From: Candidatus Neomarinimicrobiota bacterium
GTDB lineage: Bacteria > Fidelibacterota > UBA2242 > B5-G15
Assembly (NCBI GenBank): GCA_017656425.1
Contig: JACDNV010000026.1
Span: 1 to 22,665, forward strand
Reading direction: 5' to 3'
DNA: 22,665 nt
The notes below the pieces were generated by a model. It worked only from the letters and a program-made list of their open reading frames with translations. It did not search any database and was not told where the DNA came from. A program made the position numbers and the translations under genes. The first letter of the stretch is position 1. Each line of letters opens with the position of its first letter. This document shows positions 13,930 to 22,626 of the stretch, in pieces.

Positions 13930-16410
13930 ATGGAGGTCTTAAAACTTGCACCTATCTTTTTGACAATTTCTTTAATTTTATGTGCAAATATAAACGCCAA
14001 GCAATACAATAATAGACAAGAAATTCCTAAGAAGTACCGATGGAATATTACAGATATTTACAAAACAGAAGAAGACTGGATAAAAGCTAAAAAAGAGGTT
14101 GTAAAGAAATTTCCACTCATAACAAAATATAAAGGAAAACTCGGAAAATCATCCAAGTATTTATTAGAATGCTTAAAACTGAATAGTGAAATTGATAAAG
14201 ATCTATCAAAATTCTATACTTATGCCGCATTAAAATCAGATGAAGATATTAGAATCTCAGAAAATCTTGCTAAAAAACAGGAAATTTTACAACTATATAC
14301 AGAATATAAATCAATAGCCTCATTTATAGAACCAGAAATACTCAAAATTGATAAGAAAAAGATTGAGAAATTTATCTATAAGGAACCTGAACTTGAAGAA
14401 TATAGATTTTACCTTGAGAACTTACAAAGGCAAAAAGCTCATCTTTTAAGTGAGAAAGAGGAAAAAATATTAGCACTATCTAACCTAATTACCAATTCAC
14501 CATATACAATCTTTAGCGTATTATCAAATGCTGATTTGCCCTATCCCGAGATTACTCTTTCAACCGGTGAAAAAATAAAACTCAATCAAGCAGGTTATCA
14601 AAAATACAGAACAGTTCAGAATATAAAAGATAGAGAGATGGTTTTTCATGAATTCTTCTCTTCCCTTGGGAAATTTCAACGGACATACGGGACTGACCTT
14701 GGTGCACTGGTAAAAACACACATTTTTTATACAAAAGTAAGAAACTACAATTCAACGCTGGAACTGGCACTCGATCCAAATAATATATCGACTGAGGTTT
14801 ATTTCAAACTTATTGAAAATGTTAACAAAAACCTCAATAGATTTCATAGATACCTTAAAATAAATAAAAAATTACTGGGACTTGACACCCTTAAATACAG
14901 TGATCTTTACGTACCCGCTGTAAAATCCATAGATACAGAGTTTGATTATGACGAAGCTAAAGAAATGGTACTGAATGCTTTAAAACCTCTTGGACGGGAA
15001 TATATTCAAACACTTAAAAGGGCATTTAATGAGAGATGGATTGATGTGTATCCAACAGAAGGGAAGCGTTCAGGTGCCTATTCCAATGGTAGTGCATACG
15101 ATGTACATCCCTATATCCTTCTTAATTACACGGGCCAATATAATGATGTTAGGCGCAAAGGCTTAATGCAGAATGCAGAATGCAAATTGAAAAATGCAAA
15201 ATCGTCTTTTGTCAGATTTGGCTTTTGTACTCAAAATGTATACAGAAATAAATTTGACTTTTGCATTTTGCAATCTTCATTTTTCAATTGCCGTAAGGCT
15301 ATCTTACCCCTCGGGAAATCGCCTTCGGCGACTTCGTGAATACAAGATGTTAGGCGCAAAGGCTTAATGCAGAATGCAGAATGCAAATTGAAAAATGCAA
15401 AATCGTCTTTTGTCAGATTTGGCTTTTGTACTCAAAATGTATACAGAAATAAATTTGACTTTTGCATTTTGCAATCTTCATTTTTCAATTGCCGTAAGGC
15501 TATCTTACCCCTCGGGAAATCGCCTTCGGCGACTTCGTGAATACAAGATGTTAGGCGCAAAGGCTTAATGCAGAATGCAGAATGCAAATTGAAAAATGCA
15601 AAATCGTCTTTTGTCAGATTTGGCTTTTGTACTCAAAATGTATACAGAAATAAATTTGACTTTTGCACATTGCAATCTTCATTTTGCAATTGCCGTAAGG
15701 CTATCTTGCCCTTCGGGAAATCGCCTTCAGCGACTTCGTGAATATAAGACATAAGTACTCTTGCTCATGAGCCCAGTCATACAATGCATAGTTATTTTTC
15801 CAATAAAACCCAACCGTATTCCACTGCCGATTACCCAATATTTGTAGCAGAAGTAGCAAGCACCTTAAATGAAATCTTACTTTTCTTTGATCAATATCAA
15901 AAAGCTACAGATGACAATATAAAATTGTATTTACTAATGGAGTTTCTTGATGGTATGAAGGGTACTCTTTTTCGCCAAACTCAATTTGCAGAATTCGAAC
16001 TTGAAATGCATAAAATAGCCGAAAAAGGCGGTCAGCTTACAGGAGACGTCTTATCCTCATTATATAAAAAAATTGTAAGAAAATACTATGGTCATGAAAT
16101 GGGAGTTTGTTTTGTACCTGATTATATAAAGTACGAATGGGCTTATGTGCCACATTTCTATTATAACTATTATGTATATCAATACGCTACTTCATTTACC
16201 GCATCAATATCACTGTCAAAAGATATTTTAGAAGGAAATCAAGAATCTATCAAAAGATATATAAATTTCCTTTCATCAGGTGGATCAGATTATCCAATAA
16301 ATCTCCTCAAAAAAGCAGGTGTCGACATGACTTCCGATGAACCATTCAACAAGACCATGGAATTTATGGACTGGGCTATGGATGAGTTAGGAAAAATAAT
16401 AAACCAGTAA
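13930..16410 (+). pseudogene. pepF: M3-family oligopeptidase (PepF-like) gene split by a 603-bp repeat insertion
   Basis: The first 405 to 407 codons (13930 to about 15150) and the last 218 to 220 codons (about 15748 to 16410) together encode one exported PepF-like zinc oligopeptidase of about 625 residues with an N-terminal signal peptide. The 5' part ends ..LLNYTGQYNDV. The 3' part resumes in the same frame with STLAHEPSH and then M-H-S-Y-F-S, the zinc-motif helix, followed by the later ligand Glu in FVAEVAS. Between them are three tandem 201-bp units carrying in-frame TGA codons, so an unprocessed message gives a 469-residue product lacking the active site. The zinc motif reads HEPSH, whereas the family has Gly in the fourth place (HExGH); CTC to CCC and GGT to AGT transitions would explain it and suggest decay. 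The start is supported by GGGG seven bases before the ATG. The metallophosphoesterase gene follows 54 bases later. Confidence 0.88.
15145..15747 (+). repeat. Three tandem 201-bp repeat units inserted in pepF
   Basis: Units start at 15145, 15346 and 15547, each with GATGTTAGGCGC. Units 1 and 2 are identical; unit 3 differs at about 8 positions, all in its last 100 bases. Each unit holds an inverted repeat: GCAAATTGAAAAATG (15182-15196 in unit 1) pairs with CATTTTTCAATTGC (15278-15291). Three tandem mini-hairpins follow: GCC-GTAA-GGC, CCC-CTC-GGG and TCGCC-TTC-GGCGA. A heptamer AATGCAG is repeated near the unit start. The array is flanked by the imperfect direct repeat AATATAA(T) at 15137-15144 and 15741-15747, which may be a target-site duplication. 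No protein-coding potential is evident. It looks like a small non-autonomous element that was then amplified. Confidence 0.9.
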
Positions 16411-17685: not shown

Positions 17686-18037
17686 GGGGGCGAATGGATT
17701 CGACGGGATTGAAGGTGTAATAAACGGCGTGCCGTGGTTTCTCGGGAGTCCACGTAAAACAAACCTGAGGTTGGATAAGTGCCAACTACAACTACGCTGT
17801 TGCCTAAATTATAGGCAACCGTCCTTTCTGATCTTGCCTGCGGGTCAGAAAAGGGCGTCATTTAGCAGGCTAGTCCATTGCCTTTTTTCGCCGGGTAATG
17901 GGCGAAATTTCAGGTGAAATAGCCTTTCCGGAATTTGCCCGTTGATGAAGGAAAGGCGAAAACTTAACAATGGGCTACGCACGTAGAGGTTTATTCCACC
18001 TCTTTCTCGGACGAGGGTTCGATTCCCTCCGCCTCCA
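17686..18037 (+). ncRNA. ssrA: Transfer-messenger RNA (tmRNA)
   Basis: The RNA rescues stalled ribosomes and tags their products for proteolysis. The 5' end GGGGGCGAATGGATTCGACGG is the family signature. It pairs with CGCCTCC (18030-18036) as a 7-bp acceptor stem with one G-T pair and discriminator A. The T-arm is GAGGG-TTCGATT-CCCTC. The tag frame lies at 17781-17807. A perfect 8-bp hairpin (GTTGCCTA/TAGGCAAC, 17799-17819) overlaps the end of the tag and its stop, and GC-richer pseudoknot-like segments follow. CCA is not encoded (CAA follows the discriminator). The glycosyltransferase gene converges with only 5 bases between, so a terminator would have to lie inside that gene. No convincing promoter was found. 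Confidence 0.96.
17781..17807 (+). CDS. tmRNA-encoded proteolysis tag, ANYNYAVA
   Basis: The frame GCC AAC TAC AAC TAC GCT GTT GCC TAA begins with the resume codon GCC, after the upstream UAAGU. With the charged alanine the tag is AANYNYAVA, 9 residues against 11 in E. coli. The start AAN and the Y-A-V-A end resemble known tags, but the C-terminus is Val-Ala where most tags end in Ala-Ala. Confidence 0.85.
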   Translation, partial: ANYNYAVA

Positions 18038-18042
18038 CAATT

Positions 18043-21059: not shown

Positions 21060-21513
21060 TGATACAACCTGTAACTTTATGTCCACCTAAGAAATAAAAA
21101 GATTTGAGTACACGTAAGATAACTCTTGAAAGATGATATAAGATAAAATGACTGACATGTTGTTTGAAATAATGGATTAAATATTAATATTAATATTATC
21201 GTAGTAGAAATTTATTGCAAAGATGAAAATTCTATACATTAGTTAAAACAAAAAAGCTAACTCTATATCCACACAGCAGAAAAAGCTGTTCGATCAATTT
21301 TGTCTGATTCAGGGACATGGTATACACTTTGAGAAGGCATTTTGCAATAATCTAAGCTGAAAAGATCAAGTATTACAGGTTTAAATTTAATGAGTTTGTT
21401 ATAATCAATTTTGCTTTTACCACCTGCTTCATAAGCTATTTTTAGTGGAGTAACACCTCCTTTATATCTGTTAATTCTGAGTGTGTTAAAGTAAACCATA
21501 TATGTATAGCATT

Positions 21514-21533
21514 TCCCATGGGGATCCACAGGA
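21514..21533. repeat. 20-bp double-hairpin micro-insertion (copy A)
   Basis: On the minus strand this is TCC-TGT-GGA followed at once by TCCC-CAT-GGGA, two tiny hairpins with 3-nt loops and a central GATC. It directly follows TA (minus strand) in the transposase gene. Removing exactly 20 bases restores the frame (TCT AAA TGC, Ser-Lys-Cys). Confidence 0.8.
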
Positions 21534-21934
21534 TAGACAAAAGATCAAGGCTATCTTTATAATCCTCAATGTCAAAGAACTCATCTTCTATAATTCGATG
21601 GAAAGCCTCTACATCGCTGTTGTAAGTCTTTTGTCCAGGTGGTATTCTTGAGTGATATACGTTATATCTTTTCAGCATTTTCTCAAATGGACTCAGTCTC
21701 TTTATAGATGAAACAGGATTCTTTCTGTTGTATACAATTACAAATTCACTACCATTGTCAGTCTGAACTGTAATCTCTTCGAGATTTACTCCACAACTTT
21801 GTAGGTGTTCCAATATAACTTTTGCAAAAATAGAAGCATTTGTTGAAGTATTCTCTCTGGCGAAACTCACAAAAGCTAAACCAGTCCTCACATCTCTTGC
21901 TGTATACATATATCCAGGAAATGATGAAATATAG

Positions 21935-21956
21935 TCTCATAGAGATCCCTATGGGA
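21935..21956. repeat. 22-bp double-hairpin micro-insertion (copy B)
   Basis: On the minus strand this is TCCC-ATA-GGGA followed by TCTC-TAT-GAGA. Each half is a hairpin with a 3-nt loop, and the whole is a near-palindrome with a central GATC. It directly follows CCTA in the transposase gene and is identical to copy C. Its removal restores the frame. Confidence 0.85.
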
Positions 21957-21982
21957 TAGGGATAATACTTCGGTATATCTTT

Positions 21983-22004
21983 TCTCATAGAGATCCCTAT
22001 GGGA
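21983..22004. repeat. 22-bp double-hairpin micro-insertion (copy C)
   Basis: This has the same sequence and orientation as copy B, 26 bases away, and directly follows GTTA on the minus strand. Removing it joins Glu-Leu to Lys-Asp-Ile-Pro in frame. Confidence 0.85.
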
Positions 22005-22419
22005 TAACTCTTTTGTATCTATCTGTATTAACTCAAATAACTTCAATCTCTTCTTTACCTCTCTTAAATCCCTCTTAACAACATGTTTCTTCTTACGTCT
22101 CCTTATTAGCCCATTCTGTTTCAGAACTCTGTATATAGCTCCTGTACTGCAGGGAATTTTAAATTCTTCCTTGATTCTGTAAGGACCTAAATATGGATGA
22201 GCCCTCCTTATCTCCAGTATCCTCTCCTCTAACTCCAAAGGTATCTTCCCTGGGTTGCTCCTCGGTGCCCTCGACCTATCTAAAAGCCCTTGTAACCCCT
22301 CCTCCCTGTACCTATTTAACCACTTATACACTGTCTTCCTTGTCGTTCCAAATAACCTCGCTGTCTTACTTACTCCATTCTTTAAAGCTGACTCTACCAT
22401 TTCCCTGTGCAAATTATAA

Positions 22420-22626
22420 CTATTTTTCATATCTTTTATCAGTTGACAATATCTTATTACCATGGGCTCTCTCCTCCTTCTTATATCCATCAAAACTTAC
22501 ACGGAGAGAGCCCTCTTCTTCAATCCCCTCTATCAAACCTACTCCATCTCCTTCTACTATCCTTCTAACCTCTATCAATCTCTCATCTGTTAGCCTCTTA
22601 ATCTCTCTTATCCCTATCAACCCCAT
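22420..22626 (-). CDS. Possible translated leader ORF upstream of the transposase
   Basis: This 68-codon frame begins ATG at 22626 with AAGGAG four bases upstream, a better exposed start than the transposase's own. It runs through the whole RBS-sequestering hairpin and ends 44 bases inside the transposase gene in another frame. The product is highly charged, with repeated Arg/Glu and Ile, and matches nothing I know. It may be a leader whose translation opens the hairpin. The purine-rich composition of this stretch makes chance open frames likely, so confidence is low. Confidence 0.35.
   Translation of the reverse strand: MGLIGIREIKRLTDERLIEVRRIVEGDGVGLIEGIEEEGSLRVSFDGYKKEERAHGNKILSTDKRYEK
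22464..22513 (-). promoter_or_regulatory. Hairpin sequestering the transposase ribosome binding site
   Basis: The minus strand has GGGCTCTCTCC (22503-22513) and its exact complement GGAGAGAGCCC (22464-22474) around a 28-nt loop. The 3' arm lies directly against the transposase ATG and includes part of its Shine-Dalgarno region (AAGGAGGAG). Such structures in insertion sequences are known to limit transposase translation from read-through transcripts. Confidence 0.6.

Follow-up and report, generated by a model that had tools for sequence, protein, structure and literature searches.

Double-hairpin inserts in an IS481-type transposase gene belong to a dispersed family of 20–22 bp repeats with a patchy distribution in one bacterial phylum

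The window analysed here is a whole stretch of 22,665 nt (contig C26) from a 2.8-Mb genome of Candidatus Neomarinimicrobiota that is 99.7% complete. An IS481-type transposase gene lies at the very end of the window on the minus strand, and it is interrupted by three short elements, numbered here in gene order:

21263..22463, minus strand: IS481-type transposase gene, interrupted by the three elements; 378 codons with the flanks joined
21983..22004, minus strand: 22-bp double-hairpin element 1, identical to element 2 and spaced 48 bp from it
21935..21956, minus strand: 22-bp double-hairpin element 2, TCCC-ATA-GGGA plus TCTC-TAT-GAGA on the minus strand
21514..21533, minus strand: 20-bp element 3, TCC-TGT-GGA plus TCCC-CAT-GGGA on the minus strand

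On the plus strand, both 22-bp elements read TCTCATAGAGATCCCTATGGGA and the 20-bp element reads TCCCATGGGGATCCACAGGA. The initial annotation had described three double-hairpin inserts in a transposase ORF, and both their positions and their form were borne out. The elements disrupt the frame, whereas removal of their 64 bases produced a 379-codon frame including the stop, so that joining the flanks reproduced the clean 378-codon transposase that had been claimed. Its N-terminal part matched the NCBIfam model transpos_IS481 below the curated cut-off (7e-28), and the Pfam LZ_Tnp_IS481 and HTH domains were also found. When the double-hairpin pattern was searched with up to 3 mismatches, these three places were the only matches in the 22.7 kb window (expected 0.32), and none of 100 shuffled windows reached three. 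The dinucleotide TA directly precedes all three elements, as annotated, when the coding (minus) strand is read. Their common orientation was also stated correctly but means little, because each element is nearly its own reverse complement.

Exactly empty sites, with 0 bp in place of an element, were found in other copies of the IS, as the initial annotation would have it. The site of element 3 is empty in two IS copies of a genome of the same family (G001, C121 and C254), which read TTTGTCTA^AATGCTATAC; the junction lies in an ungapped 80-bp match (95%). A diverged IS481 transposase in the window's own genome (C13) reads through both 22-bp sites without elements (DVKYLDDIPEFFKYYCK). In a degraded IS copy at C9:112112, one element is kept and the 48 bp between elements 1 and 2 is gone; the left flank of this single element is that of element 1 and its right flank is that of element 2, which is what recombination of element 1 with element 2 would produce. 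The site of elements 1 and 2 is common to two IS copies with ~15% divergence while the window copy is otherwise unbroken, which is not fully accounted for. The three inserts are real insertions, since relatives of the IS exist without them and nothing was gained or lost at the junctions.

The same pattern recurred outside the window. In the window's own genome, the 22-bp form with up to 2 mismatches was found at 16 places, compared with 3 for a control pattern read backward, and the 20-bp form had 15 placements (control 0), a few of which overlap the 22-bp set. One weak match in a large open frame at C3:71829, with 3 mismatches, was taken as chance. Among 100 relatives searched, 43 contained the pattern, with a maximum of 87 copies in one genome. 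A search of 245 genomes, all of one phylum and available as partly fragmented assemblies, revealed 138 exact copies in 26 genomes, and the backward-read control gave none in any genome. Whole families of the phylum had no element at all, indicating that the distribution is patchy. From the fetched loci, 131 distinct copies were examined, and the same consensus was present in 46 unrelated contexts and many families. The family is therefore genuine, dispersed and patchy through the phylum. Recurrence in the genome and in many relatives, exact empty sites and covariation in both hairpins (see below) all support the original suggestion of mobile palindromes.

The element consists of two abutting hairpins, 4-3-4 plus 4-3-4 nt or 3-3-3 plus 4-3-4 nt, with GATC at the joint. 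The first loop follows the rule RNV and the second the rule BNY, loop sequence being otherwise free; a purine opens the first loop and a pyrimidine closes the second in 81 of 87 sequences. The element is strand-symmetric, with an RNV loop first and a BNY loop second on either strand. Covariation, which was not built into the search pattern, was tested on the 87 distinct sequences. Pairs 3-9 and 14-20 covaried from C:G to T:A (Fisher 3e-11 and 1e-13), but pairs 3-20 and 9-14, which a long palindrome would form, did not (0.07 and 0.73). A single long palindrome was thus rejected as the conserved form, although energy models sometimes favour it, and the stems are conserved as two adjacent hairpins. 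The architecture peaked sharply at a loop of 3 and a gap of 0, a test that is partly circular because the loci were picked by the same pattern. Single-strand folding energies were unremarkable against shuffled sequences.

Exact pairs of occupied and empty sites were also found at other loci. A partial tRNA-Asp copy on C22 has an element in its T-loop, and the adjacent intact tRNA is the exact empty site; a partial tRNA-Lys copy on C2 forms the same kind of pair with its intact neighbour. In G020, inserts interrupt the anticodon loop and T-loop of partial tRNA-Ser copies that lie beside the intact gene. Further exact pairs were given by another relic of the window IS (C9:145569, against the window IS itself), by repeats on C17 and C22, and by repeat copies in G019 and G044. 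No target-site duplication was seen at the insertion sites examined. A supposed insertion within rRNA genes at C15 was rejected, there being no Rfam match.

At one G020 locus (C265; L078:1480-2022), an intact tRNA-Ser is flanked by partial tRNA-Ser copies with three double-hairpin inserts, and a small GIY-YIG nuclease gene (1662-1916) lies between the intact tRNA-Ser and the downstream copy. Some copies are carried inside larger repeats, 10 of them sharing GATGGTTTCG^TAAAAAGTG. In genomes of family f4 (L080, L083-L087, L117, L121 and L124), many elements occupy a single position in a short repeat, GATGGTTTCG^TAAAAAGTGATTA; the element sequences at this one site differ, and copies of the repeat free of elements also occur. 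At C11:4600-5450 and C23:25300-25400 (L034, L041), several distinct hairpin units follow one another, and the rows end in short tandem repeats of GAGAT. Elements seem to have accumulated in these clusters, nested or in tandem, and some of the copies there resemble tandem duplications more than insertions.

Once repeated contexts had been removed, 46 sites were left for the analysis of the target. At position -2, G was absent (0/92, p 6e-10) and T was found in 57/92, and at position -3 a pyrimidine was found in 74/92; the consensus of this bias is YYR^YRR. When the targets were joined, 10 of the 46 had the junction at the centre of a triloop closed by at least 3 bp of stem, compared with ~1.9 expected at random positions. 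Swapping flanks among the sites still left an excess at triloop centres (5 and 5 versus ~1.3 each), indicating that base composition alone does not explain the preference. Longer loops showed only a small excess, and stems of at least 5 bp were found at 7 sites versus ~3. The preference for hairpin loops is significant at triloop centres and modest overall. Most elements are located in non-coding DNA, in defunct mobile elements or in partial copies of tRNAs. Of 114 elements, 15 lie in open frames of at least 150 aa, where 40% of random positions fall, and none of the 114 was found to disrupt a conserved host gene.

The best explanation of these results is probably that the inserts belong to a non-coding mobile family of 20–22 bp, spread in trans via a single-stranded folded intermediate, and that in the window they simply inactivate one IS copy, serving no function in its transposase gene. 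Several features suggest a folded single-stranded intermediate and target: insertion is exact and duplicates no target bases, both hairpins are conserved, the otherwise free loops follow a purine/pyrimidine rule, and the loops of other hairpins are preferred as targets. The intermediate would be the element itself as a folded single strand; an enzyme acting in trans would read the hairpins, requiring no fixed sequence, and would join the element into loops of folded single-stranded targets. More tentatively, the two triloop hairpins may join folded single-strand loops that include those of tRNA genes and of the elements' own hairpins, through a shape-reading enzyme outside the known transposase pairings.

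A Y1-type HUH transposase is the leading, though unproven, candidate for this enzyme, and clean insertion without target-site duplication is expected of such enzymes. Element counts correlated with Y1 transposase counts (rho 0.40, p 4e-5; within-family permutation p 0.026), and a Y1 gene was present in 21 of the 22 genomes with at least 3 elements, although Y1 genes are common regardless (71/100 genomes). A RAYT flanked by elements was rejected, since a double hairpin was near only 1 of the 28 Y1 loci examined. G017 contains 7 elements with no Y1 match. The initial annotation had proposed to look for a RAYT/TnpA gene in the window genome (G000); the sole Y1 domain there is a fragment, fused within the reading frame of a methylase. 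Thus, the count correlation lends some weak support to the Y1/RAYT route of the initial annotation, whereas the Y1 loci and the fragment in the own genome speak against it. The frame concerned (L135:1360-3798, minus strand, on C5 of G000) has 812 aa; the fragment, from a REP-associated tyrosine transposase, is embedded in frame in an Eco57I-type methylase, between the peptide repeats TGIPAC and TGISAC.

One alternative would also involve a Y1 transposase: the elements would be REPIN-like, each 22-mer made of two 11-bp mini-REP units as an inverted doublet, and a RAYT would move them in trans as it does Pseudomonas REPINs. The element reads TCCC-RNV-GGGA and then the inverted counterpart of this unit, a form that fits the proposal, as do the distribution of Y1 genes and the clean insertion. 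REPs and REPINs with their RAYTs (PMC3116915, PMC3733652) are likewise short, palindromic, dispersed and extragenic, with an inverted doublet and a possible Y1 link. However, they are defined by a GTAG (or CGTC) tetranucleotide tag at one palindrome end (PMC3733652), whereas the present elements end in TCYC...GRGA and have no such tag. Moreover, the two units here have no long spacer or loop between them, and the elements do not accompany Y1 genes as REPs accompany RAYTs. Considering also the genome without a Y1 match and the partial domain in G000, we regard the REPIN-like reading as possible but doubtful. A MITE of a DDE insertion sequence was rejected, because there is no target-site duplication, the total length is 20–22 bp and no IS ends were recognised. 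Movement through an RNA intermediate and reverse transcription, as reportedly proposed for the small dispersed repeats (SDRs) of cyanobacteria, would suit the covarying hairpins and the tRNA loops among the targets. But G000, at 99.7% completeness, has no RVT_1 match, nor have G028, G043 and G044, which carry 87, 24 and 32 elements, and strand symmetry of the element is not something that selection on an RNA requires. A reverse transcriptase (PF00078) was therefore rejected as the mover, and this route as a whole is unlikely.

Explanations without mobility, or with a transposase still made, fared worse. Palindromes might arise by local template switching or quasi-palindrome correction, or be ancestral repeats that were precisely lost, and the elements do occur in groups alongside other hairpins and within tandem repeats, with stems that stay perfect. 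Yet one consensus is found across the 46 unrelated contexts and many families, some of the empty sites are intact tRNA genes or transposase frames, which are necessarily ancestral, and there are no flanking direct repeats to allow precise loss; such an origin is very improbable. The initial annotation had alternatively considered skipping at the RNA or ribosome level, as with byp elements or mitochondrial hairpins. In favour of this, nothing but the three inserts interrupts the 378 codons of the transposase, and the diverged copy on C9 has the position of elements 1 and 2, which suggests that the inserts are not very recent. The scarcity of elements in open frames leaves such bypass unsupported, however: no conserved host gene was found broken, no element was found in a still-functional gene among the 114, unlike byp elements, degraded IS copies also bear elements, and several occupied sites are partial tRNA copies, presumably dead. 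We consider bypass extremely improbable, and a mobile family spread in trans remains our preferred reading.

The initial annotation knew of no described bacterial family of this form, which overlooks the cyanobacterial SDRs, elements of this same kind in another phylum. SDRs are reportedly mobile repeats of 21–27 nt with common folds kept by compensatory changes, and they are said to show nested insertions and to lie often inside other repeats; an RNA intermediate with reverse transcription has reportedly been suggested for them. The study by Elhai et al. (2008, Genome Res 18:1484) of SDR1-8 in Nostoc and its relatives is cited in PMC3116915 and PMC4390886, the latter of which places SDR5 precisely between nucleotides 3 and 4 of HIP1. 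Like SDRs, the present elements are short dispersed repeats with exact insertion, empty sites and a secondary structure kept by compensatory changes. Compared by description, they differ in phylum, in sequence, in their back-to-back triloop hairpins on GATC, in strand-symmetric loops, and in targets that are YYR^YRR and hairpin loops, not HIP1. On this comparison, SDRs are the closest precedent.

Mitochondrial double-hairpin elements are usually longer than the 20–22 bp family. Those of fungal and sponge mitochondria, which include repetitive hairpin-forming elements, are dispersed and potentially mobile in intergenic and genic DNA, and they stay in transcripts without being excised (PMC2800124). 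They share with the present elements two adjacent hairpins, dispersal and mobility, but they are organellar, whereas the bacterial family is 20–22 bp long, depleted in genes and without sequence in common with them. The mobile GC clusters of yeast mitochondrial DNA, which PMC2800124 cites, are tiny, GC-rich and palindromic, with putative preferred targets; by description, they differ in genome type, length and sequence. Literature searches returned these SDR, REP and mitochondrial precedents only, and the papers searched made no mention of the present element sequences. For elements of such kind, the evidence for insertion, structure and target is unusually clean. Tiny mobile repeats are known in cyanobacteria and mitochondria, and how some 20-odd bases move remains unsettled. 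A second bacterial lineage with such repeats offers a strict simple design, exact occupied and empty pairs, a measurable target rule and patchiness over 245 genomes, so that co-occurrence can serve to screen for candidate mobilising enzymes, which can then be assayed in vitro.

Two other features of the window were observed. An M3-family oligoendopeptidase gene is divided in two (13930-15339 and 15784-16410), shortly before its HExxH motif, by three tandem 201-bp repeats (15145-15747; 100%, 100% and 97%) that contain inverted arms of 28 nt, and a tmRNA gene with the predicted tag ANYNYAVA lies at 17686-18038.
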